Source of the DNA: Myxococcales bacterium
Lineage (GTDB): Bacteria; Myxococcota_A; Polyangia; Haliangiales; Haliangiaceae
Length of the DNA stretch: 64,000 nt
Direction: 5' to 3'
Assembly (NCBI GenBank): GCA_016720595.1
Contig: JADKKI010000038.1
Span: 62,001 to 126,000 of the forward strand
The position numbers and the translations under genes are program-made. Positions 9,002-25,682 of this stretch are shown one piece after another; the stretch's first letter is position 1, and every line of letters starts with the position of its first letter. The notes beneath the pieces were generated by a model. The model saw only the letters and a program-made list of their open reading frames with translations. It made no database searches and was not told the origin of the DNA.

Positions 9002-9643
9002 ATGCCGCGTTTCACATTCCCCGAGTGGACCGACACGCTCAAGAAGTGGATCAACCTCCTGGTCCTCGGTGCGCCGATCTATCTGGTCGCCCTGGTGGCC
9101 TACGGCGTCACTCCGGAGGCGATCCGGATCGGCTATCAACCGGACCAGCCGGTCCCGTATAGCCACGCCCTTCACGCTGGCGAGCTCGGCCTCGACTGCC
9201 GCTACTGTCACTCGACGGTCGAGCGCGCAGGCAAGGCGGCGGTCCCGCCGGCCGCGGTGTGCATGAACTGCCACTCGCAGGTGAAGAAGGAGTCCGATCT
9301 CCTCCTCCCGATCCGCCAGGCCTACGCGGAGAACCAGCCGGTCCACTGGACGCGTGTCCACGACCTGCCGGACTACGTGTACTTCAACCACTCGGCGCAC
9401 GTGAATGCCGCCGTGGGTTGCGAGTCGTGCCACGGCCGGATCGACCAGATGGTCAAGGTCTTCCAGTCGAAGCCCCTGACGATGTCGTGGTGCCTCGATT
9501 GTCACCGGAACCCGGAGCCGAACCTGCGCAAGGCCGATGCGGTCACCGCGATGGGATATCAGCCCGGCAAGGACGAAGGCGCTGCCGTGATGAAGGCGAA
9601 CAACGTCCACCCGCCCATCAACTGCTCGACCTGCCACCGCTAG
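9002..9643 (+). CDS. actA: Alternative complex III subunit ActA, pentahaem cytochrome c, 213 aa
   Basis: This is the first gene of the respiratory operon. An N-terminal membrane anchor (about residues 17-36) is followed by five CxxCH haem-c sites: CRYCH (66-70), CMNCH (87-91), CESCH (140-144), CLDCH (164-168) and CSTCH (208-212). The pentahaem layout with a single anchor is that of ActA in alternative complex III (quinol:electron-acceptor oxidoreductase), where it carries electrons on the periplasmic side towards cytochrome c or the oxidase. The start is fixed by AGGA six bases upstream. actB follows after 9 bp. Confidence 0.95.
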   Translation: MPRFTFPEWTDTLKKWINLLVLGAPIYLVALVAYGVTPEAIRIGYQPDQPVPYSHALHAGELGLDCRYCHSTVERAGKAAVPPAAVCMNCHSQVKKESDLLLPIRQAYAENQPVHWTRVHDLPDYVYFNHSAHVNAAVGCESCHGRIDQMVKVFQSKPLTMSWCLDCHRNPEPNLRKADAVTAMGYQPGKDEGAAVMKANNVHPPINCSTCHR

Positions 9644-9652
9644 GAGTCGAGG

Positions 9653-12600
9653 ATGTCCGCCAAAGAACCTGACGACCACGGCCACGACCACGATCACGGC
9701 CACGGCCACGATCATGCCCACGACGACCATGCCCACGACGATCACGCGCACGACGAGGTCGTGGCGCCGATCGCTCCGAACGAGCATGGCTACTGGCGCT
9801 CGCTGAAGGAGCTCGAGGGCAAGGCGAGCTTCCAGCTCGATCCCGCCTCCGCGCGCAACGAGTTCCCGACGGCGCCGGATCGCACGATCGATCCGATGCA
9901 CCGCCGTAACTTCTTCCAGCTGATGGGTGCCTCGATGGCGCTCGCCGGCGTCAGCGCCTGTCGCTACGAGAAGGAGGAGATCGTTCCCGCTCGCGCGCCG
10001 CCCCGAGGATCAGACCCCGGGCGTCACGCAGCAGTACGCCACCGCGTTCGATCTCGGCGGCGTCGGGCACGCGATCGTCGCCACCGCGTTCGAGGGCCGG
10101 CCGATCAAGCTCGACGGCAACCCCGAGCACCCGTTCGCTTCGGGCGGCGCCGTGCCGGGCACCCAGCGCCACGCGGGCCTGTCGACGTTCGCCCAGGCCT
10201 CGATCCTCCACCTCTACGATCCGGACCGCTCGCAGAACCCGACCTCGGGCGGCAAGGGCGCGTCGATGGAGGCGTTCCGCTCGGCACTCGCCGAGGTTCG
10301 CAAGGGCCTGTCGACCACCCGCATCCTCAGCGAGGCCTCGTCCTCGCCGACCGTCGCGTACCTCCGCGCGCGCCTCCTCGAGGCGAACCCGGGCCTCACG
10401 TGGCACGAGTACGAGCCGCTGTCCTGGGACAACGAGCGCGAGGGTACCCGCAAGGCGTTCAATCAGCCGGTGCGCGGAATCGCGCGGCTCGACAAGGCCG
10501 AGACGATCGTCACGATCGATTGCGACCTGTTCATCGAGCACCCGGCGGCGCTTCGCTACAGCCGTGACTTCGCGCGCAGCCGTCGCCTGAACGGCTCGCT
10601 CGGCATCGGCAAGATGAACCGCCTGTGGACGGTGGAGAGCACGTTCACCAACACCGGCGCGATGGCGGATCACCGCCTCGGGCTGCGCTCCGAGCTCGGC
10701 CTGCCGTTCGCGATGGCGCTCGACTCCGCCCTCGGCGGCGGTGGCGCTCCCAACGCGGAGTTCCTGAAGGAGAAGAAGGTCGCCGAGTTCATCAAGGTCC
10801 TCGCGGAGGAGCTGAAGCAGAACCGCGGCAAGGCCGTCGTCGTCGCGGGTCGTCGGCAGTCCGCCGATGTCCATGCGCTCGTCGCGCGGATCAACCAGTC
10901 GATCGGCGCCCCGGGCGCCACGCTCGACTACTACTTCGAGCCGGACCCGAACCGGCGCCCGCACGTCGAGTCGATCGCCGCGCTCACCAAGGACCTCGCC
11001 GCTGGCCAGGTCAAGCAGCTGATCATCCTCGGCGGCAACCCGGTCTACGACGCGCCGGCGGACCTCGACTTCACGGCAGCCCTCGGGCGCGTGCCGCTGT
11101 CGATCCACCTGCACGAGTACCAGAACGAGACCTCGCGGAAGACGACGTGGCACCTGCCGAAGTCGCACTTCCTCGAGGCCTGGGGCGATGCGCGCACGTG
11201 GGACGGCACCGTCACCGTGGCGCAGCCGCTGATCGCGCCGCTCTACGGCGGTGTCTCGACGATCGAGCTGCTCTCGATGCTGCTCGGCGAGGAGAAGGGC
11301 GGAGACGTCCTGGTCCAGGAGGCGCACGCCAAGCTCGGCGTCACCGCCGGCTGGCGCCAGAGCGTGCACGACGGCTTCGTGCCGAACACGCAGCTCCCCA
11401 CCGCGCAGGTCACGGTCGCCGGCTTCGCGCCCCCGCAGCTCACGCAGAGCCAGGCGGGTGGCACCAAGCGCGCGAACGGCGACATCGAGGTGGTGTTCCA
11501 CATCTCGCCGTTCAGCTACGACGGCCGCTACGCGAACAACGCGTGGCTGCAGGAGACCCCGGACTTCCTCACCAAGGTCACCTGGGACAACTACGCACTC
11601 GTCGGTCCCGAGACCGCCACGGCGCTCGGGCTCGAGAACGACACGATGATCACGGTCAAGGTCGATGGGCGCTCCATCGATCTGCCGTGCCACACGATCC
11701 CGGGGCAGGCCCGGTTCTCGGTCGGCCTCGTCCTCGGTGGCGGTCGCACGGCCGCGGGCCGGGTCGGCGGCCAGGACGGCGACACCGTCGGCTGGGACAC
11801 CAACAAGGTCCGCACCGTCGCGGGCTTCGACATCGCGGGCAAGGCGACGATCTCGCCGGCCGGCAAGAAGTACGAGCTCGCGAGCGTCCAGGAGCACTGG
11901 GATATCCGCGCGGGCATCGTGCCCTCGGTCAACAGCGAGGGCCTGCAGCAGCGGCTCCCCGAGCTGATCCGCGAGACCACCGCGAAGACGCTCAACGAGA
12001 ACAAGGACTACACGGCGGAGCCCGCCTCGGGCTTCTTCACGGATCCCAAGCGCGCCAGCAACAACGACGGTCCGACCCGCGCGGGCGGTCAGTCGCTGTT
12101 CAAGGAGCGGGACTACACCGGTCACCGCTGGGCGATGGCGATCGACCTCAACACCTGCACCGGCTGCAACGCCTGCATGGTGGCGTGCCAGTCGGAGAAC
12201 AACGTCCCCGTCGTCGGCCGCAAGGAGGTCACCGCAACCGCGAGATGCACTGGATCCGCATCGACCGGTACTTCAGCGGCAGCCCCGAGGAGCCGCACGT
12301 CGTTCACCAGCCGGTCGGCTGCCAGCAGTGCGAGCAGGCTCCCTGCGAGCAGGTGTGCCCGGTCGGCGCGACCTCGCACTCCGACGAGGGCCTGAACGAC
12401 ATGGCGTACAACCGCTGCATCGGCACGCGGTACTGCGCGAACAACTGCCCGTACAAGGTCCGCAAGTTCAACTTCCTCGACTGGAACAAGGAGTGGCGTG
12501 ACGCGCGCAACCGCGTGCGTCAGCTGCTGTTCAACCCGGACGTCACGGTCCGCATGCGCGGCGTGATGGAGAAGTGCACGTACTGCGTGCAGCGGATCCA

Positions 12601-12906
12601 GAACGGCAAGATCCGGGCGAAGGCGCAGATCCGCAGCGGGATGCGCCCGGGCACCGTCGATGGCGCCATCCCGGATGGCGAGATCGAGACGGCGTGCCAG
12701 GAGGCATGCCCGACCGAGGCGATCACGTTCGGCGATCTGTCGGACACCACGAGCCGCGTCGCGAAGCTGTACGACGACAACCGCGCGTACTCGCTGCTCC
12801 CCGAGCTCTACACCAAGCCCCGCACGCGGTTCTTGACGCGCGTGCGTAACCCGAACCCGGCGATGTCCTCCGCCGCGGCTGCCTCGGCGAACGAGGGGGA
12901 ACACTG

Positions 12907-12907
<1 letters not shown>
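9653..12907 (+). CDS. actB: Alternative complex III subunit ActB (iron-sulfur/molybdopterin-type), frame broken twice by single-C indels
   Basis: With two corrections the product is about 1084 aa. It has a His/Asp-rich N-terminus (12 His in residues 9-34), a YWRSLKEL segment, and an internal Tat/lipobox signal ([13 protein letters not shown] at 84-85, Cys 103). A molybdopterin-oxidoreductase-like domain without obvious cofactor ligands follows, then a C-terminal ferredoxin-type region with [38 protein letters not shown] and KCTYCVQ...CQEACP, fitting three [4Fe-4S] and one [3Fe-4S] cluster. The frame breaks at 9986-9988 (CCC where CC restores ...[14 protein letters not shown]) and at 12232-12233 (CC where CCC restores ...EVTRNREMHW). 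The two indels cancel, so the end of the gene is back in the starting frame. It couples to actC by a 1-base TGATG overlap. Confidence 0.9.
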
Positions 12908-14316
<1,409 letters not shown>

Positions 14317-14323
14317 GGACGTC

Positions 14324-15586
14324 ATGGCGAACCACGACGAACACAACCACGACCACGACGACGACCACGCGCCGGTGATCCATCCGGACGGCGAGCTGTA
14401 TGGCGTCCTGGCCGAGTACGACACCCCCGGTGAGCTTCTCGATGCGGCCCGCAAGGTCCGCGACGCCGGCTACACCGAGTTCGACTGCTACACCCCGTTC
14501 CCGGTCCACGGGATCGACGAGGCGATGGGGATCAAGCGGACGATCCTCCCGCTGATCGTCTTCGGCGGTGGAGCCACCGGCCTCCTGGGCGGCATCTTCC
14601 TGCAGTGGTGGATGAACGCCTACAACTGGCCGTGGAACATCGCCGGCAAGCCGAGCTGGTCGATCCCCGCGAACGTGCCGATCGCGTTCGAGGGCACGAT
14701 CTTGTTCTCGGTGTTCGCCTCGTTCTTCGGGATGTGGATCCTGAACAAGCTGCCGCAGGTGTGGCACCCGTTCTTCCGCTCGGACCGGTTCGCGCGCGTC
14801 ACCGATGACGCGTTCGTGCTCGGCATCGAGGCCAAGGACAAGCGGTTCGATCACCAGACCACCACCAAGCTGCTCAAGGACGCCGGCGCGATCGGGGTGG
14901 AAGACGTCCACCTCGAGGGTGACCCGGCGCGCAAGAACATGCCGAAGTGGATCACGGCGCTGATCGTCGCCTCCACCGCGTTCGCGTTGATCCCGTTCGC
15001 GATCGCCGCGAAGGCCCGCAACTCGCACTCGAGCGAGCCGCACCGCCACATCTTCCCGGACATGGACTTCCAGCCGAAGTTCAAGTCGGACACCGCGATC
15101 GACCTGTTCCCCGATGGCCGTGCGAACCGCGGCGAGATCACGGGCACGATCGCCCGCGGGTCGCTCAACGCGGACGACACGTTCTACCGCGGCATCGAGA
15201 ACGGGACCTGGACCACCGGCTTCCCGAAGCAGCTCGAGATCAACGACGCCCTGGTCAAGCGTGGCCAGGGTCGGTTCAACATCTACTGCTCCGCGTGCCA
15301 CGGCTACGATGGCCGCGGCAACGGCGCCGTCCCTCAGCGGGTGGCGCTGGGTGGTGGAGCCTGGCAGGCACGCAACCTCGTCGAGGCGAATGGCGCCGCG
15401 GTGATGATGCCGAACGGCCAGCTGTTCAACACGATCTCGAACGGCTTCAACACGATGATGGGCTACGCCAACCAGATCCCGCATGCGGACCGGTGGGCGA
15501 TCGTCCTCTACGTTCGCGCCCTCCAGCGCTCGCAGAACGCGACGCTCGAGGACGTGCCCCCCGATCAGCGTGGCTCGATCCGCTAA
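14324..15586 (+). CDS. actDE: Alternative complex III ActD-ActE fusion: DUF3341 membrane domain plus monohaem cytochrome c, 420 aa
   Basis: Residues 1-20 are His/Asp-rich. Residues 20-190 are ActD: a soluble segment (YGVLAEYDTPGELLDAARK, YTPFPVHGID) and two membrane helices (about 68-92 and 121-142), matching DUF3341. A third helix (about 205-228) then leads into an ActE-type domain with one haem site (YCSACHGYDGRGNG, about 321-334) and Met-rich segments that can supply the axial ligand. In Rhodothermus and Flavobacterium complexes actD and actE are separate genes; here the reading frame is continuous and there is no start site at the junction. The third helix would take the place of the ActE signal anchor. 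AAGGA precedes the start. Confidence 0.9.
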   Translation: MANHDEHNHDHDDDHAPVIHPDGELYGVLAEYDTPGELLDAARKVRDAGYTEFDCYTPFPVHGIDEAMGIKRTILPLIVFGGGATGLLGGIFLQWWMNAYNWPWNIAGKPSWSIPANVPIAFEGTILFSVFASFFGMWILNKLPQVWHPFFRSDRFARVTDDAFVLGIEAKDKRFDHQTTTKLLKDAGAIGVEDVHLEGDPARKNMPKWITALIVASTAFALIPFAIAAKARNSHSSEPHRHIFPDMDFQPKFKSDTAIDLFPDGRANRGEITGTIARGSLNADDTFYRGIENGTWTTGFPKQLEINDALVKRGQGRFNIYCSACHGYDGRGNGAVPQRVALGGGAWQARNLVEANGAAVMMPNGQLFNTISNGFNTMMGYANQIPHADRWAIVLYVRALQRSQNATLEDVPPDQRGSIR

Positions 15587-15598
15587 GCGGAGGAACCT

Positions 15599-16909
15599 AT
15601 GAGCAGCCTACAAAAGACCCTCCATCCCGACGAGAAGATCAAGGCCGGCAAGATCGGAGGCACGCTGACCAAGGCGGGCCTCGGGATCGCGGTCGTGTTC
15701 CTCCTGGTCTCGATCGTCCTCACGCTCACCGGAACCGCGAACAGCGGTCACGACAGCAAGTGGGCCCGGTTCTTCCACGCCTACGTGATCGGCTGGAGCT
15801 ACATCTTCACGCTCTCGCTGGGCATGCTGTGGCTCGTGATCCTGCACTACCTCGTGCGCGGTCGCTGGGTCACGGCGGTCCGCCGGATCGCCGAGGCGAT
15901 GGCCAGCGCCTTCCCGGTCATCTTCATCGCCGGGCTCGGGTTCATCATCCCGCTGCTCGCCGGCTACAAGGATCTCTACTACTGGGCGCATCCCGACGCG
16001 CACAACCACGAGCTCAACCATCACCTGCTGCACAAGCTCGGCTGGCTGAGCCCGACGTTCTTCGCCGTGCGCTTCGTGATCTACGGCGTCGCCTTCAGCG
16101 CGCTCGCCGGGTACTTCTCCAAGAAGTCACGCGAGCAGGACGAGACGGGTGACCCCAAGATCTCCGAGACCCTCCGCATCGCCTCCGCGCCGGCGATGAT
16201 CCTGTTCGCGATCGTCACCTGCATGGTGGCCTTCGACGTCCTCATGTCGATCGCGCCGAAGTGGTTCTCCACGATCTACGGCGTGGCGTTCTGGGGCTCG
16301 GGCTGCGTCGCCTCGTTCGCCGCGCTCGCGCTCCTGGTGCTGTTCATCCAGCGCTCGGGCCGCCTCAAGCACTCGATCAACGCCGAGCACTATCACGACA
16401 TCGGCAAGTGGATGTTCGCCTTCACGTTCTTCTGGGCGTACACCGCGTTCTCGCAGTTCATGCTGCAGTGGTACGGCAACATGCCGGAGGAGACGCACTG
16501 GTACAAGTACCGGATGTTCGGCGAGTGGCAGTACGTGTCGATCGCGCTGCTCGTCTGCTACTGGGCGTTCCCGTTCGTGTTCCTGCTGTCGCGGTGGACC
16601 AAGCGGATCGTGCCGGCGCTGATGTTCTTCGCCGTGTGGCAGCTGGTGTTCCACTGGCTCGACCTCTACTGGAACGTCATGCCGAGCTACGACTGGCAGG
16701 TCGTCTATCACGACGGGGCGCGCATCGTGGCGGGCCCGCTCACCGGGAACCCGGACCTCCACCACATCGGCGCGTCGCCGGTGGATGTCACCGTGTGGCT
16801 CGCTCTCGTCGGTATCTGGATCGCCGCCGTCGGGCGCAACCTCACCGGCAACCTGATCCCGATCAAGGACCCGACGCTTCCGTTGTCGCTGGCCCACGAA
16901 GTTCAGTAG
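15599..16909 (+). CDS. actF: Alternative complex III subunit ActF, NrfD-like membrane subunit, 436 aa
   Basis: A strong GGAGG ribosome-binding site lies six bases before the ATG. The product is a polytopic protein of about ten helices. Typical segments are GWSYIFTLSLGMLWLVILHYL, AFPVIFIAGLGFIIPLLAGY, the WAHPDAHNHELNHHLLHKLGWLSPTFF loop, AFTFFWAYTAFSQFMLQWYGNMPEETHWY and the FVFLLSRWTK turn. These match ActF, the second membrane subunit of alternative complex III, related to ActC. It closes the ACIII part of the operon and is followed after 17 bp by a small membrane protein. Confidence 0.93.
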   Translation: MSSLQKTLHPDEKIKAGKIGGTLTKAGLGIAVVFLLVSIVLTLTGTANSGHDSKWARFFHAYVIGWSYIFTLSLGMLWLVILHYLVRGRWVTAVRRIAEAMASAFPVIFIAGLGFIIPLLAGYKDLYYWAHPDAHNHELNHHLLHKLGWLSPTFFAVRFVIYGVAFSALAGYFSKKSREQDETGDPKISETLRIASAPAMILFAIVTCMVAFDVLMSIAPKWFSTIYGVAFWGSGCVASFAALALLVLFIQRSGRLKHSINAEHYHDIGKWMFAFTFFWAYTAFSQFMLQWYGNMPEETHWYKYRMFGEWQYVSIALLVCYWAFPFVFLLSRWTKRIVPALMFFAVWQLVFHWLDLYWNVMPSYDWQVVYHDGARIVAGPLTGNPDLHHIGASPVDVTVWLALVGIWIAAVGRNLTGNLIPIKDPTLPLSLAHEVQ

Positions 16910-16926
16910 GCGGAGAGGCAAAAATC

Positions 16927-17517
16927 ATGTCTGGCCCCAAGCGCAATCCCGACACGCTCAACACCATCGGCATCGTCGTCGTTGGTATCTGCGGCGCCGT
17001 GCTCGTCTACGTCACCATCGTCGCGCTCCAGGCGTTCTACGTGAACGACACCTCGGAGATCCAGACGATGGCGGACTACGGTGGCAACGACACCAGCGCC
17101 CGCTCGATCAAGACGACGCAGATCCACAACATCACCGATGTCGGCGCGAACGCCGTCGCCGCGCCCAAGCCGGGCGAGACGCCGAAGTCCGCGACCTACC
17201 GGGTGAACATCGACCAGGCGATGAAGCTGGTCGTCGAGAGCGCGAAGGTTGATCCCTCGATGCTCGTTCCTACCCAGGGGCGCGCGGACAAGGCGACGAT
17301 CAAGCCGATCTACGGTCGCCCGCAGCCGCTCCCGGCGCCGACGCCGCCGCCGGCTCCGAACGATGGCGCGGGCTCGGGTGCAGGTTCGGGATCCGCGGCT
17401 CCGCCGACCACGCCCGCGGGCGCGGGCAGTGGAAGCGCGGCTCCGGTCGTGACTCCGCCGACCGCAGCGGGTTCGGGTTCGGGCTCGGGCTCGGCCGCGA
17501 AAGGCAATGCGCCGTAA
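16927..17517 (+). CDS. Small single-pass membrane protein of the ACIII-caa3 operon, 196 aa, function unknown
   Basis: A GGAGAGG ribosome-binding site precedes the ATG at 16927. Residues 14-38 form one transmembrane helix (IGIVVVGICGAVLVYVTIVAL) with a short cytosolic N-terminus. A periplasmic segment of about 80 residues follows, with a helix ATYRVNIDQAMKLVVESAK, then a low-complexity Pro/Gly/Ser/Ala tail (about 120-196) with repeated GSGSAAP-type units. The tail resembles the GSAAAPAT linker of CtaC encoded two genes downstream. It overlaps the SCO gene by 11 bp. It matches no ACIII or oxidase subunit I know. A role as an accessory subunit or assembly factor joining the two complexes is inferred from position only. 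Confidence 0.8.
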   Translation: MSGPKRNPDTLNTIGIVVVGICGAVLVYVTIVALQAFYVNDTSEIQTMADYGGNDTSARSIKTTQIHNITDVGANAVAAPKPGETPKSATYRVNIDQAMKLVVESAKVDPSMLVPTQGRADKATIKPIYGRPQPLPAPTPPPAPNDGAGSGAGSGSAAPPTTPAGAGSGSAAPVVTPPTAAGSGSGSGSAAKGNAP

Positions 17518-18412
17518 CGGCCACATCGCGGTGGTCGTGATCGGTCTCCTCACGGGGACGGTCAGCGCACATCCGCAGGGTGAGAGCCCGAGCGAGCAGA
17601 TCCTCCCGCCGCCGCCGACCTACAAGGCCAACGGTGTCACGGTGGACGAGCAGATCGGCGCGCGCATCCCCCTCGATGCCGCGTTCCGCACCAGCGATGG
17701 GCAGCGCGTCACGCTGGGCGAGCTCGTGCACGGCGAGCTGCCGACGATCTTGACCTTCAACTACTCCGACTGTCCGATGCTGTGCAGCCTGCAGCTCAAC
17801 GGCCTGTCGTCGGCGCTTCCGAAGATCGCCGAGCCGGTGACGATGCCGGGCCGCGGTGATGACCCGGTCGCGTTCAAGACCGGTCAGCAGCTGCGGATCA
17901 TCACGATCGATCTCGAGCCGAACGAGCCGCTCGACAAGCTCACGAAGATGAAGGAGCGCTACATCGGCAAGCTGCCCGAGGCGCAGCGGGCCGCGGCGCG
18001 CAAGGGCTGGACGTTTCTCGCGGCTGCCACGCCGGGAGATGGTGCGGCGATCCGTCGCGTCGCCGAGAGCGTCGGCTTCAAGTACGTCTACGTCGAGGAT
18101 CGCGCCGAGTGGGCGCATCCTGCTGCCCTGATCTTCCTCAGCACCACCGGCGTCGTGACCCGCTATGTCTACGGGATCGAGTTCGATCCCCAGGTGATGC
18201 GTGACTCGATCGTCAAGGCGGGGCTGGCGGAGCCCGCGACCGCCGTTGGATTCATGAATCGCTGCTATCACTTTGACCCCGACGCGAACAGTCACACGCG
18301 CGCCGGAGTGCTCGCCCTGCGGCTCGGTGCCGTGGGGTTCCTCGTGTTGCTGGTCGGAGGGCTTGGCTTTGTCCATACCCGCCGTCGCCGGCGCGTCCCG
18401 GGAGAATCATGA
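17507..18412 (+). CDS. SCO1/SenC-family copper chaperone, 301 aa
   Basis: A signal peptide (residues 1-21, ending VSA) precedes a thioredoxin-fold SCO domain with the copper-binding CxxxC in SDCPMLCSLQ (Cys 89 and 93) and the distal His in EWAHPAAL (about 204). These are the three copper ligands of SCO proteins, which insert or reduce the CuA centre of cytochrome oxidase subunit II. Unusually for the minimal family, a C-terminal transmembrane helix (about 263-290) follows the domain, so the protein is tail-anchored and faces the periplasm. The gene overlaps its upstream neighbour by 11 bp and the subunit II gene by an ATGA, so it is made with its client. Confidence 0.92.
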   Translation: MRRNGHIAVVVIGLLTGTVSAHPQGESPSEQILPPPPTYKANGVTVDEQIGARIPLDAAFRTSDGQRVTLGELVHGELPTILTFNYSDCPMLCSLQLNGLSSALPKIAEPVTMPGRGDDPVAFKTGQQLRIITIDLEPNEPLDKLTKMKERYIGKLPEAQRAAARKGWTFLAAATPGDGAAIRRVAESVGFKYVYVEDRAEWAHPAALIFLSTTGVVTRYVYGIEFDPQVMRDSIVKAGLAEPATAVGFMNRCYHFDPDANSHTRAGVLALRLGAVGFLVLLVGGLGFVHTRRRRRVPGES

Positions 18413-19824
18413 AGTCCATGACCCGCTTCATCGCGACGGTCGCGGTCACGGCGACCATCGCCACCGTCATCGTCGTCAAGCTGTTCGGCTCCCCCTCGGC
18501 GCAAGCCGAGCCGATGGGTGCGCCGGCGAACGTAACCCTCGAGCCGATCCAGATCGCGCAGGCCGACACCGGCTCCGCTGGTTCGGCGGCGGCTCCGGCC
18601 ACCGGCTCGGCGGCGGCGCCGGCTACCGGCTCGGCGGCGGCTCCGGCTACCGGCTCGGCGGCGGTTCCGGCCACCGGCTCGGCGGCGGCTCCGGCCACCG
18701 GCTCGGCGGCGGCTCCGGCCACGGGTTCAGATGCGGGCTCGGCAGCGGGCACTCCGGCGCCGGCCGCAGGCGCAGGTTCGGGCTCCGCGGCAGCCGCACC
18801 CCAGCCCGTCGAGCTCGCCTGGTACGACAAGCTGGTCCAGCGCCCGGTCGAGGAGAGCGGCAACTTCTGGATGCCGAAGGCCGTGAACGATGTCGCCGAT
18901 GACTCGGACTTCATGTTCATCACGGTGCTCGGCCTGTCGACGTTCTTCTTCATCGCGATCGCGGTCGCGGTGATCTACCTGACCATCAAGTACCGCCACC
19001 GCCCCGGTCACAAGGCCGAGCCCTCGTCCGCGCACAACGATGCACTCGAGGTCACGTGGACCGTGATCCCAACGATCATCTGCGTGTTCCTGTTCTATTA
19101 CGGCTGGCGCGCGTACATCCACATCGTCACCCCGCCCCAGAAGGCGATCGAGATCAACGTCCTCGCCCAGCGCTGGTCGTGGAACTTCACGCACTCGAAC
19201 GGCGTCGAGGACTCGGACCTCCATGTCCCCGTCAACATGCCGGTGCGCCTGGTGATGACGTCGACCGACGTCCTTCACTCGTTCTACGTCCCCGTGATGC
19301 GGACCAAGCAGGACATCATCCCGCGCCGCTACACGTACGTCTGGTTCAACGCGACCAAGCCGGGCACGTACCGCCTCAACTGCGCGGAGTACTGCGGCAC
19401 CAACCACTCGCAGATGGGCATCACCGCCCCGAGCCCCGAGTTCCCCACCGGCCGCCGCGCCGTCGTCGTCGTCCACGATCCGGGCGGCTACGAGCGCTAC
19501 CTCGCCGACAAGGCCGCCGCCTCGCAGCACATGGAGCCCGACAAGCTGGGCCGGATGCTCTACGAGAAGAAGGGCTGCGTCGCCTGCCACACTGTCGACG
19601 GCAGCGCCCGCGTGGGCCCGACCTTCGCCCACGACTACGGCACCGAGGTGCCGCTCGCGGACGGCTCCAAGGTCCTGATGGACGAGAACTACATCCGCGA
19701 GTCGCTCCTGGCACCGCAGGCCAAGGCGCGTCCCGGCTATCCGCCCTCGATGCCCTCGTTCGAAGGCCAGCTCAAAGAGAATGAGATCGTGGGCATCATC
19801 GCCTTCATCAAGTCGCTCAAGTAG
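18409..19824 (+). CDS. ctaC: Cytochrome c oxidase subunit II, caa3 type with fused cytochrome c, 471 aa
   Basis: The layout is: an N-terminal hydrophobic leader, a low-complexity linker with about six 8-residue GSAAAPAT repeats (58-107), two transmembrane helices (about 166-190 and 215-240), and the CuA cupredoxin domain with His in TSTDVLHSFY (about 290) and CAEYCGTNHSQM (Cys 325 and 329, His 333, Met 336). The C-terminal cytochrome c domain has CVACH (390-394) and a later Met-rich segment PSMPSFEG. The fused haem makes this a caa3-type enzyme able to take electrons directly from ACIII. The long repeat linker ahead of the first helix is unusual for the family. It overlaps SCO by ATGA; ctaD follows after 6 bp. 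Confidence 0.96.
   Translation: MKSMTRFIATVAVTATIATVIVVKLFGSPSAQAEPMGAPANVTLEPIQIAQADTGSAGSAAAPATGSAAAPATGSAAAPATGSAAVPATGSAAAPATGSAAAPATGSDAGSAAGTPAPAAGAGSGSAAAAPQPVELAWYDKLVQRPVEESGNFWMPKAVNDVADDSDFMFITVLGLSTFFFIAIAVAVIYLTIKYRHRPGHKAEPSSAHNDALEVTWTVIPTIICVFLFYYGWRAYIHIVTPPQKAIEINVLAQRWSWNFTHSNGVEDSDLHVPVNMPVRLVMTSTDVLHSFYVPVMRTKQDIIPRRYTYVWFNATKPGTYRLNCAEYCGTNHSQMGITAPSPEFPTGRRAVVVVHDPGGYERYLADKAAASQHMEPDKLGRMLYEKKGCVACHTVDGSARVGPTFAHDYGTEVPLADGSKVLMDENYIRESLLAPQAKARPGYPPSMPSFEGQLKENEIVGIIAFIKSLK
18581..18729 (+). repeat. 24-bp tandem repeat in ctaC encoding GSAAAPAT units
   Basis: About six near-identical 24-bp units (core GGCTCGGCGGCGGCTCCGGC with two alternating endings) lie head to tail. 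They differ by only a few bases, mostly synonymous; one unit has Val for Ala. The repeat lies between the leader and the first transmembrane helix of CtaC. Such arrays are prone to copy-number change. Confidence 0.85.
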
Positions 19825-19830
19825 GAACCC

Positions 19831-21728
<1,898 letters not shown>

Positions 21729-21732
<4 letters not shown>

Positions 21733-23159
21733 GCGACCAGTCGCACGCCGCGCACGGCGACGATCATGGGCACGGCGACGCCTCGCCGTACATCCAGCAC
21801 CACTACGACGACGCGCAGCACCAGTTCGATTCCGGCAAGCTCGGGATCTGGCTGTTCCTGGCGCAGGAGGTCCTGTTCTTCTCGGCGCTGTTCGTCGCGT
21901 ACATCCTCTACCGGTATCACCACCCGGAGATCTATTCGTACGCGCACAAGTACCTCGACGTGAAGATGGGCGCGATCAACACCGCCGTCCTGATCTTCTC
22001 GAGCCTCACGGCGGCGTGGGCCGTGCGCTGCGCACAGCTCAATCAGCGCAAGGGCCTGATCCTCTGCATCGTGGTCACGCTCGGCTGTGCGTGCACGTTC
22101 CTCGTCGTCAAGTACTTCGAGTACACGCACAAGGTCCACGAGCACATCCTGTTCGGGCGCTACTTCGATCCGTGCGTGAGCTCGGGTGGGAACGAGCTGC
22201 TCACCAAGAACAACGAGTGCCCCGGTAGCAAGTCCACGATCGAGTGGGACTACGGCACGGCCAAGGCCAAGGAGGGCTGCTTCACCGCGATCGGGATCGA
22301 CACCGATCGCGCCGAGGAAGGCATCCAGGCCGATTGCACCGTGTTCGAGGCCACCGGCGCGATGGCGAAGGACAAGGACGGCAAGCAGGAGTGGGTCGAG
22401 AAGTCTCGCAAGCCGATCGCGAACCGCTGCGCCGAAGAGGTGTTCGGTCACGCCGAGGGCGACGACGCTCAGATGTCCCACGCGGAGGCACCTGCCGCCG
22501 CGAAGAAGGAAGCGTTCCCGTGCTGGAAGCCTGCGATCCAGCCCGCGGTCTGCCGGGATGGCTGGTTCTTCGCCTGGAGCTGCGACGGCCCCGTCTGCAA
22601 GGCTCCGTCGGGTGGTGAGGGGCCGTTCGTCTCCGCCAACAAGTGTCTCGAGGCGCGCTCTAACAAGGAAGCCGCGCTCAAGGGCGAGGGCACGCCCTGG
22701 GTCTCGGAGTGCGCGGACGGCCATGGCGCCGGCATCCTCGTCGAGTACGGCGATCACGCCGAGCGCGGCGACACCATCCGCATCAAGGCCGAGTGCAAGG
22801 GCCCGGCGGCGCCGGTCGCGCGCGATCCGCTCTCGGACAAGGACACCGAGCTGGTCGTCGGGCAGAAGGCGGTCAAGCGCCGGGTGCCGATGAGCACCCA
22901 CGAGGCGCACGAGCGTGAGGCTGCGGGCCCGCCGCCCGAGCACACGAACATGTTCTTCACGATCTACTTCGCGATGACGGGCCTCCACGGCGTGCACGTG
23001 CTGTTCGGCGTGTTCGTCTTCATCTGGCTGCTGATCCGCGCGATCAAGGGTCAGTTCACCCCGGACTACTTCGGGCCGGTCGACTTCGCTGCGCTGTACT
23101 GGCACATCGTCGATCTGATCTGGATCTTCCTGTTCCCGCTCCTCTACCTGATCCACTGA
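21729..23159 (+). CDS. ctaE: Cytochrome c oxidase subunit III with a large Cys-rich periplasmic insertion, 476 aa
   Basis: The start is GTG 21729, overlapping the ctaD stop. The oxidase core is normal but split. TM1-TM3 are in residues 38-130 ([53 protein letters not shown]) and TM4-TM5 are in residues 407-476 ([38 protein letters not shown]). Between them lie about 260 extra residues (about 145-404) with 12 cysteines (149, 164, 184, 203, 234, 265, 275, 285, 290, 306, 328, 356), many charged residues and no membrane helix. Five-helix bacterial subunits III are usually about 200 residues. By the known topology the TM3-TM4 loop is periplasmic, so disulfides are plausible. The N-terminus is His-rich. 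Confidence 0.9.
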
Positions 23160-23166
23160 GGACCCC

Positions 23167-23550
23167 ATGGCCACCGCACATCACGACGACCACGACGACC
23201 ACGGGATCTCCCACACCGCCTCGATCAAGGTGCTGCTCTCCACGGGTGGCTCGCTGCTGCTGCTCACGATCGTGACGGTGCTCGCGACGAAGATCGATTT
23301 CGGGGCGAACATCAACCTCGCGGTCGCGATGTTCATCGCCGTCATCAAGGCGACGCTCGTCGTCCTGTTCTTCATGCACCTCAAGTACGACAAGATCTTC
23401 CACACGGTGATCTTCACCAGCGCGATCCTCGCGGCCGCGCTGTTCGTGGGCTTCACGCTGATGGACTCGGGTCAGTACCAGCAGACGAACATCTGGAACC
23501 CGGATCACCCGCCGATCGCGCCGAACGGTCCGCGCCCGATCTCCGGCTAG
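23167..23550 (+). CDS. ctaF: Cytochrome c oxidase subunit IV-type small membrane protein, 127 aa
   Basis: GAGGA precedes the start. It has a His/Asp-rich N-terminus (residues 5-17) and three transmembrane helices (about 23-42, 50-70 and 78-98) with the family motif AVIKATLVVLFFMHLKYD, typical of bacterial cytochrome c oxidase subunit IV (CtaF/CyoD-like). The C-terminal tail is Pro/Asn-rich. It is the last gene of the oxidase group, 7 bp after ctaE. The subunit probably stabilises CuB binding in subunit I, by analogy with the family. Confidence 0.9.
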   Translation: MATAHHDDHDDHGISHTASIKVLLSTGGSLLLLTIVTVLATKIDFGANINLAVAMFIAVIKATLVVLFFMHLKYDKIFHTVIFTSAILAAALFVGFTLMDSGQYQQTNIWNPDHPPIAPNGPRPISG

Positions 23551-24778: not shown

Positions 24779-24890
24779 GAGGGGAGTCAGATGATTGTCA
24801 CCGTGATGAAGCGGTCGCAGACAATGGATGGCAAAAATATCGGCGAAATCAAATGGGCGAAGCTCGTGCCGATTGCTACAAGGAGGAATC

Positions 24891-25682
24891 GTGACGGCGA
24901 CGAAGCGGACCAAGGCGCGCAAGCGCCACGTGCAGACGGAGCTGCTCAATGCGCGCGGCACGGCGCCGAAGTCCCGGCGCGGTGGCAAGCGGCGTGGTGC
25001 GGGGCGGCCGCCGAAGGGCGCGCGTGCTGGTTCGCCGCACAAGAAGCGCGAGGCGTTCAAGCCGAGCCAGCCGCTGCACATCGTGCTGCGCGTGGTGGGG
25101 GCGATGGGCGCGCTGCGCCGTCGCGAGATGTACCGGGCGCTGCGCTGGGCGACGATCGTGGTCGCGAAGCACGAGGACATGCGGATCATTCATCTCTCGA
25201 TCCAGCAGAACCACGTCCACCTGCTCGTCGAGGCTCAGCACAAGCAGGCGCTCGCTCGCGGCATGAAGGCGTTCCAGATCTCGGCTGCGAAGCTGATGAA
25301 CGCGGCGCTCGGGTGGAAGGTTCGCCGGCGCGGCCAGGTGTTCGAGGATCGCTATCACTCCGAGGTGATCAAGACGCCACGGCAGGCGCGCCACGCGCTC
25401 GCGTACGTGCTCAACAACTGGCGCAAGCACCAGCAGGATCGCGGCGTGCGTGCGCGGACCTGGCTCGTGGACCCGTTCTCCTCGGGCTGCTCGTTCGCGG
25501 GCTGGAAGCAGCTCGAGCACGCCACCGTGATGTGGAGGGTTCCGGCGACGTACGACGCGATGGCGGTCTGGCTCCCGAAGACCTGGCTCCTGCAGAGCGG
25601 CTGGCGCAGGTACGGCTTGATCGATTGCCACGAGGTGCCGAGCAAGAACCAGCTCGCGCGCCGCGCGAAGGCACGCGTTTAG
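24891..25682 (+). CDS. Y1 (IS200-like / REP-associated) tyrosine transposase, 263 aa
   Basis: The start is GTG 24891, preceded by a perfect AGGAGG four bases upstream; an in-frame ATG at 24828 has none. A basic N-terminus with an AT-hook-like segment (GGKRRGAGRPPKG, about 27-39) leads into the Y1/HUH domain: HUH metal motif NHVHLLVE (His 108 and 110), the following ARGMKAFQISAAKLMN helix, GQVFEDRYHSEVI, and the candidate catalytic Tyr in HALAYVLNNWRKH (about 172). This arrangement fits REP-associated tyrosine transposases (RAYTs), usually single-copy host-domesticated genes, better than classical IS200. It appears intact. Hairpins lie directly upstream and a hexanucleotide repeat directly downstream. 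Confidence 0.88.
   Translation: MTATKRTKARKRHVQTELLNARGTAPKSRRGGKRRGAGRPPKGARAGSPHKKREAFKPSQPLHIVLRVVGAMGALRRREMYRALRWATIVVAKHEDMRIIHLSIQQNHVHLLVEAQHKQALARGMKAFQISAAKLMNAALGWKVRRRGQVFEDRYHSEVIKTPRQARHALAYVLNNWRKHQQDRGVRARTWLVDPFSSGCSFAGWKQLEHATVMWRVPATYDAMAVWLPKTWLLQSGWRRYGLIDCHEVPSKNQLARRAKARV

Follow-up and report, generated by a model that had tools for sequence, protein, structure and literature searches.

Among the closest described counterparts of the enzyme encoded at this locus is the ACIII-caa3 supercomplex of Rhodothermus marinus. Similar to what excerpts of its published account describe (PMC5928083), the locus combines a pentaheme ActA, a tethered cytochrome c and act genes followed by oxidase genes. 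Unlike that account, the window (the whole 64,000-nucleotide stretch of DNA that was analysed) encodes a subunit III with an added domain, ActD and ActE in one frame, and an ActF with a longer last loop. R. marinus has a periplasmic addition of its own, ActH, which is likewise lineage-confined and thought to steady the complex; however, ActH is depicted in the same excerpts as a separate helical protein (PMC5928083), whereas the CtaE domain is predicted to be mainly beta and is inserted in an oxidase subunit. Outer-side extra mass near Cox2/Cox3 or the cytochrome c site has also been described for complex IV, in the form of Cox6b/Cox12 and the Euglena helmet (excerpts of PMC6018760). There, the additions are separate mitochondrial subunits, and we liken them to the CtaE domain by position. 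Subunit III is one of the conserved core subunits of the enzymes that reduce oxygen, and the relatives compared here have short outer loops in it. The locus encodes a known kind of enzyme carrying a new part.

In the window, the genes follow the order actA-actB-actC-actDE-actF-actG-sco-ctaC-ctaD-ctaE-ctaF:

9002..9643, + strand: actA, a pentaheme cytochrome with five CXXCH motifs
9653..12907, + strand: actB region, open only in pieces and in two frames (9653-10567 and 10625-12907 in one, 9927-12395 in another)
12907..14316, + strand: actC, NrfD-like
14324..15586, + strand: actD and actE in one frame, an ActD domain plus a cytochrome c
15599..16909, + strand: actF, NrfD-like ACIII membrane subunit (match to 6f0k_F, E 3.4e-64)
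16682..16777, + strand: last periplasmic loop of ActF (residues 362-393), which is enlarged and contains a GPL motif
16915..17517, + strand: small protein, called ActG-like only from its place downstream of actF
17507..18412, + strand: SCO-like gene, with a CxxxC seen by eye
18409..19824, + strand: ctaC, subunit II with a CuA domain and a fused cytochrome c, caa3 type (COX2, COX2_TM and Cytochrom_C)
19831..21732, + strand: ctaD, subunit I, overlapping ctaE by 4 bases
21729..23159, + strand: ctaE, five-helix cytochrome c oxidase subunit III with a periplasmic insert (476 aa, COX3 match)
23167..23550, + strand: ctaF, subunit IV

ActA, ActC, ActD, ActE and ActF are all encoded next to the oxidase genes, which identifies an ACIII gene cluster, with ActB in pieces. 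The actB gene is a single long frame in two loci that carry the same CtaE domain (1194 residues in L103 and 1075 in L104), and its fragmentation in the window reflects either assembly errors or a broken gene. CtaC has one CXXCH, at its C-terminal end, as befits a caa3-type oxidase. The product of 17507..18412, which we take to be an SCO-like copper chaperone, gave no Pfam match at E 1e-3; SCO was matched in the compared loci that reach it, and not in L142. ActD and a monoheme cytochrome (ActE) also share one frame in L097 and L098 and occupy separate stretches in genome G402 (L099), while excerpts on F. johnsoniae draw ActE with its own lipid anchor (PMC8552683).

The ctaE frame opens with GTG, and its product is divided as follows:

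21816..22148, + strand: TM1-TM3 part of subunit III, the first COX3 half, residues 30-140
22149..22823, + strand: inserted disulfide-type domain, residues 141-365 as modelled, with eight core Cys
22554..22727, + strand: optional unit nested in the domain (residues 276-333), holding the variable Cys 285, 290, 306 and 328
22824..22937, + strand: poorly conserved linker back to TM4, with a conserved GPPP at its end
22944..23153, + strand: TM4-TM5 part of subunit III, the second COX3 half, residues 406-475

Pfam COX3 (PF00510) matched CtaE in two stretches that correspond to both membrane halves (E 9e-14; 52.4 bits against a cut-off of 23.8). A short TM3-TM4 loop is usual for COX3 but does not define it, so the membership stands. 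The best solved relative by sequence is subunit III of B. subtilis aa3-600, which aligned with residues 30-139 and 406-475, and the membrane part forms a five-helix bundle of the known subunit III fold (predicted helices 20-64, 66-75, 78-103, 107-136, 406-440 and 450-475). An earlier note on this DNA had placed an extra segment with 12 Cys at about residues 145-404, between TM3 and TM4. We located it at about 142-403 (22152-22937) and found exactly 12 Cys in it (149, 164, 184, 203, 234, 265, 275, 285, 290, 306, 328 and 356), the remaining four of CtaE (101, 113, 120 and 122) lying in the TM2-TM3 part. CtaE is akin to five-helix subunit III of, for example, the C. glutamicum and F. johnsoniae type; the loop has 22-33 residues in order outgroups and approximately 260 here. 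At identical cut points, the loop measures 269 residues in P0001 versus 22 in L092. Base composition by codon position within the insert (0.61, 0.52, 0.90) is coding-like, as it is in the flanks. From the topology of subunit III and from positively-charged residues seen by eye in the TM2-TM3 and TM4-TM5 (RAIKGQF) loops, we infer that the insert faces the periplasm.

A homologue search with CtaE residues 138-405 alone (E up to 1e-3) matched 285 protein clusters, 120 of which were listed; a profile search with the insert again returned 285, even up to E 10. The 120 matches listed by the profile search all contain COX3, and of the 120 listed by the first search 116 cover residues 138-405 completely, with identities from 33 to 100% among those listed. 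Organisms are named for nine rows among the matches listed (six Kofleriaceae, one Myxococcota, one Acidobacteriota and one Acidimicrobiia), and the last two may carry wrong bin labels. We aligned 121 proteins, namely the window CtaE and the 120 matches listed (of 285). Across this set, Cys 149, 164, 203, 234, 265, 275 and 356 are kept in 121/121 and Cys 184 in 120/121. The mean share of the commonest residue, again for the window protein and the matches listed, is 0.60 from C1 to C7, 0.50 in the nested unit and 0.88-0.93 in the membrane part. The CtaE insert is therefore conserved and is no assembly artefact.

Cysteines in the insert come and go in pairs. Among the window protein and the matches listed, 119 of 121 inserts have 8, 10 or 12 Cys (8 in 54, 10 in 21, 12 in 44, 9 in one and 11 in one), and the interval from C275 to C356 holds 0, 2 or 4 in all but one of the 121. 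In the same set of window protein and listed matches, Cys 306 and 328 occur together in 64 proteins and are jointly missing from the other 57; for Cys 285 and 290, 39 proteins have both, 77 have neither and five have 285 only. The distinct inserts from genome loci agree, having an even number of Cys in 22/22 (8, 12 or 14; one of the 22 is cut short). Neither CXXC nor CXXCH occurs in any of the 121 inserts (window and matches listed), and the domain consequently lacks the heme site of a c-type cytochrome; likewise, no column of this 121-protein alignment has His or Met at 85% or more. The paired Cys, together with the lack of CXXC/CXXCH and of conserved His/Met, point to disulfides rather than heme or metal. 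Based on the pairing pattern in the sequences, the eight-Cys core would contain four disulfides, and the nested unit would add one between Cys 285 and 290 and another between 306 and 328. Of the 16 genomes searched, 10 have a member of VKOR, an oxidase family that forms disulfides, and one has DsbB; these genomes seem usually to rely on VKOR, not DsbB, for disulfide formation. The earlier proposal of a disulfide-type domain on the periplasmic side is backed by this Cys parity and by the five-helix topology of subunit III.

Structure prediction of the insert gave a confident model (residues 141-365; pLDDT 92, pTM 0.86) with a mainly beta fold. The insert had no significant match in Pfam, in the PDB or by fold comparison. 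For the whole domain, fold comparison returned Ig-like beta sandwiches (e.g. FlaF, 6pbk), and for the nested unit only (model residues 136-192) the ribosomal-protein-like beta-alpha-beta fold of 5t2a_Q, both without significance. A literature search found no paper describing such a subunit III domain. The statement in the earlier note that no described domain has this pattern agrees with these profile, PDB and fold searches, none of which gave a family.

All inserts share the eight-Cys core, and the nested unit (276-333), which lies between C275 and C356, adds up to four Cys and is absent from the shorter 8-Cys forms. In the searches made, the domain was found only in CtaE, and in ACIII-linked operons where the operon could be read; it did not turn up as a separate protein, and all 120 matches listed have COX3. 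A search of ten genomes for the nested unit (E up to 0.1) gave a single match outside CtaE, at 0.099 to a 78-aa frame with a stop. The largest insert in a genome locus is that of L010 (genome G010, locus positions 1410-2417); it contains 14 Cys, and its nested unit is extended by a long addition.

The domain is confined to one lineage. Two narrow patterns, run against 84,980 species at one genome each, matched 46 stretches and yielded 13 loci. All 13 lie in members of a single myxobacterial family, and four of them have Kofleriaceae in their titles. The domain is carried by 23 of the 30 genomes of the family and by 23 of the 35 in the order, i.e. by none of the five outside the family. Among 377 genomes drawn evenly from the phylum, with six candidates scored per genome, six have the domain, all of that family, plus one chance match. 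Seven family genomes are without it: four gave no match to COX3, and the other three (G316, G394 and G395) have a domain-free CtaE, that of G394 being cut by a contig end. The domain is thus present in 23 of the 26 family genomes with a COX3 match. Other subunit III genes read in carrier genomes (L094, L095 and L096) have plain loops, and one of these three belongs to a second ACIII-caa3 operon (L139). The earlier note had held that its reading would fall if relatives lacked the segment and reads showed an assembly artefact, or if the segment matched a known common domain already described in subunit III. Outside this family relatives do lack it, members of the family retain it, and the searches matched it to no common domain already known.

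In a tree of CtaD, rooted at its midpoint and with long outgroup branches, the 17 carrier rows (two of them identical) form one clade (100/98), G316 and G395 adjoin it, and G402 and G059 fall outside. The window CtaD groups with the carriers and is 87% identical to that of L001. Along this tree, the TM3-TM4 loop measures 22 residues in G402 and 33 in G059 (at a slightly different cut), both order outgroups; 83 residues with 2 Cys in G316 and 98 with no Cys in G395, the nearest domain-free relatives; and 181-343 residues in the carriers measured. These lengths indicate stepwise growth of the loop. Most simply, a short loop grew, became the eight-Cys domain once and then took up further units. 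A lineage-specific disulfide-type domain with living shorter-looped relatives is a good case of a membrane enzyme gaining a new part.

The act-sco-cta order was seen in 12/12 carrier loci long enough to show it (L002, L003, L005-L009, L011, L012 and L102-L104, with actA reached only in L103 and L104); six more carrier loci, two of which are the same contig, end before the act genes. The same operon order occurs in the domain-free relatives L097, L098 and L099. Further, the carrier genome G004 has a second ACIII-caa3 operon, L139 (C214), with act genes including a one-frame ActDE, sco, a ctaC with a C-terminal CXXCH and a short-looped CtaE without the domain; it gave no ctaF match. Since L139 and the three relatives' loci are domain-free ACIII-caa3 operons, coupling to ACIII needs no such domain. 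The domain belongs to one particular ACIII-caa3 enzyme. A genome with ACIII-caa3 operons both with and without it offers a handle on how ACIII and caa3 hold together.

Outside CtaE, the clearest carrier-specific gain among the operon proteins compared is in ActF. ActF has ten TM helices with both termini inside, according to excerpts of two structural reports (PMC8076601, PMC5928083), which places its TM9-TM10 loop in the periplasm. This loop has 28-33 residues and a GPL motif in 13/13 carrier operons compared; in the five operons compared that lack the domain, which include the second ACIII operons L139 and L142, its lengths are 10, 11, 11, 11 and 21. Small carrier-specific gains were also seen in SCO (4 residues), the CtaF tail (6) and, in the two carriers compared, ActB (10, 5 and 5). 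None of at least 4 residues was found in ActA (three carriers only), ActC, ActDE, ActG, CtaC or CtaD.

Based on these observations, we propose as the likeliest role, with a probability of roughly 40%, that the domain acts as a built-in, lineage-specific clamp on the ACIII-caa3 supercomplex. CtaE is an ordinary five-helix subunit III whose TM3-TM4 loop, presumably periplasmic, has grown into a folded and probably disulfide-stapled domain, which most simply arose once, in one myxobacterial family, in an oxidase whose genes follow the ACIII genes. This anatomy is firm; the disulfide bonds themselves, the periplasmic site and the clamp role are deductions. The domain would stand beside the membrane part of the oxidase and fill the periplasmic space under ActA, next to ActF/ActC. 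There, it could steady the supercomplex and so keep the ActE heme and the tethered CtaC cytochrome c within mutual reach. We count the Cys parity, the lack of CXXC/CXXCH and of conserved His/Met, the presence of VKOR, the confident model, the single clade, the operon linkage and the ActF loop in favor of this proposal. In the published geometry, contacts in the F. johnsoniae supercomplex run through subunit III (PMC8361435); a domain that projects from subunit III into the periplasm would then occupy the space beneath the ACIII head. Docking on ACIII, as suggested in the earlier note, is plausible in light of the operon linkage, the ActF loop and this geometry, but L139 does without the domain, as do the operons of the relatives L097, L098 and L099. 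The longer loop is on ActF, yet the R. marinus fit, as excerpted, places the oxidase beside ActC (PMC5928083). Also, the domain and the longer ActF loop both set apart one and the same clade, which shows small gains in ActB, SCO and CtaF too; with the carriers forming one clade, the link amounts to about one event and is weak evidence alone. Finally, conservation in the domain is far below that of the membrane part, unlike what a tightly constrained interface would suggest. It is doubtful that all parts hold jointly, i.e. that an unseen fold arose by stepwise loop growth as a clamp of subunit III's own and that ActF grew a matching periplasmic loop.

The first of two main rival readings, which we consider unlikely, is that the domain forms a helmet over the electron entry of the oxidase, holding or screening the cytochrome c fused to CtaC without touching ACIII. 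One CXXCH lies near the C terminus in all 17 carrier CtaC proteins read, and the domain is acidic (median pI 5.3 and net charge -6; -10 in the window protein), which would suit a basic partner. Precedents are found in excerpts of PMC6018760, where Euglena complex IV has a helmet-like density over the cytochrome c site and Cox6b touches Cox2 and Cox3 on the outer side. However, CtaC has no carrier-specific insertion, and the four domain-free CtaC proteins read (L097, L098, L099 and L100) likewise have the fused cytochrome c motif.

The second, mostly neutral growth of the loop, is unlikely to the same degree. The domain would then be a stable ornament with, at most, a general stabilizing or protective effect. 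The increase in length by steps (22-33, 83-98, then 181-343 residues), the low conservation outside the Cys and the second, domain-free ACIII-caa3 operon of G004 are consistent with this, as are repeated insertions inside the domain. Besides the nested unit itself, the insert of G003 has a duplicate of that unit, placed between C203 and C234 (a model built without the duplicate matches it at E 2.1e-4; 3 of 1000 shuffled sequences scored as well). DUF3060 (PF11259) is a further insertion in three proteins scanned (P0076, P0108 and P0168), and in P0076 and P0108 it lies between C203 and C234. The listing gives the DUF3060 label to P0174 and P0196 as well, and the DUF3060 profile did not match the window CtaE. 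Nevertheless, practically every one of the 121 proteins (window and matches listed) retains the eight-Cys core, and nearly all COX3-bearing genomes of the family (23/26) retain the domain, whereas a useless domain of approximately 24 kDa on a respiratory enzyme should at times be lost.

Outward-facing modules often vary between lineages. The domain faces the periplasm, and its additions, including DUF3060, differ between lineages, but no cell-wall-binding family was matched and the domain was found only in CtaE, in ACIII-linked operons where readable, which makes it very improbable that the domain contacts the cell wall, a protein partner in the periplasm or anything else beyond the respiratory complexes. 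Binding of a metal (e.g. copper for CuA or CuB) or heme, the former suggested in the earlier note, would fit the many Cys and the adjoining SCO-like gene, but is disfavored to a similar extent by the missing motifs, the lack of conserved His/Met in the 121 proteins (window and matches listed) and the pairwise gain of Cys.

Other features of the locus were observed along the way. At 18583-18722, a 24-base unit is repeated in tandem within ctaC (5.8 copies, 94% matches); the repeat codes for a GSAAAPAT-type stretch ahead of the membrane helices. In ctaD, a repeat-rich C-terminal extension lies at 21647-21709. Among the 11 inner carriers of the CtaD tree, 10 have a protein of 613-666 residues, compared with 543-573 residues in L008 and in the remaining ten rows. 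Downstream of ctaF, the product of the frame at 24828-25682 resembles a REP-associated tyrosine transposase, judging by eye from its HVHLL motif.
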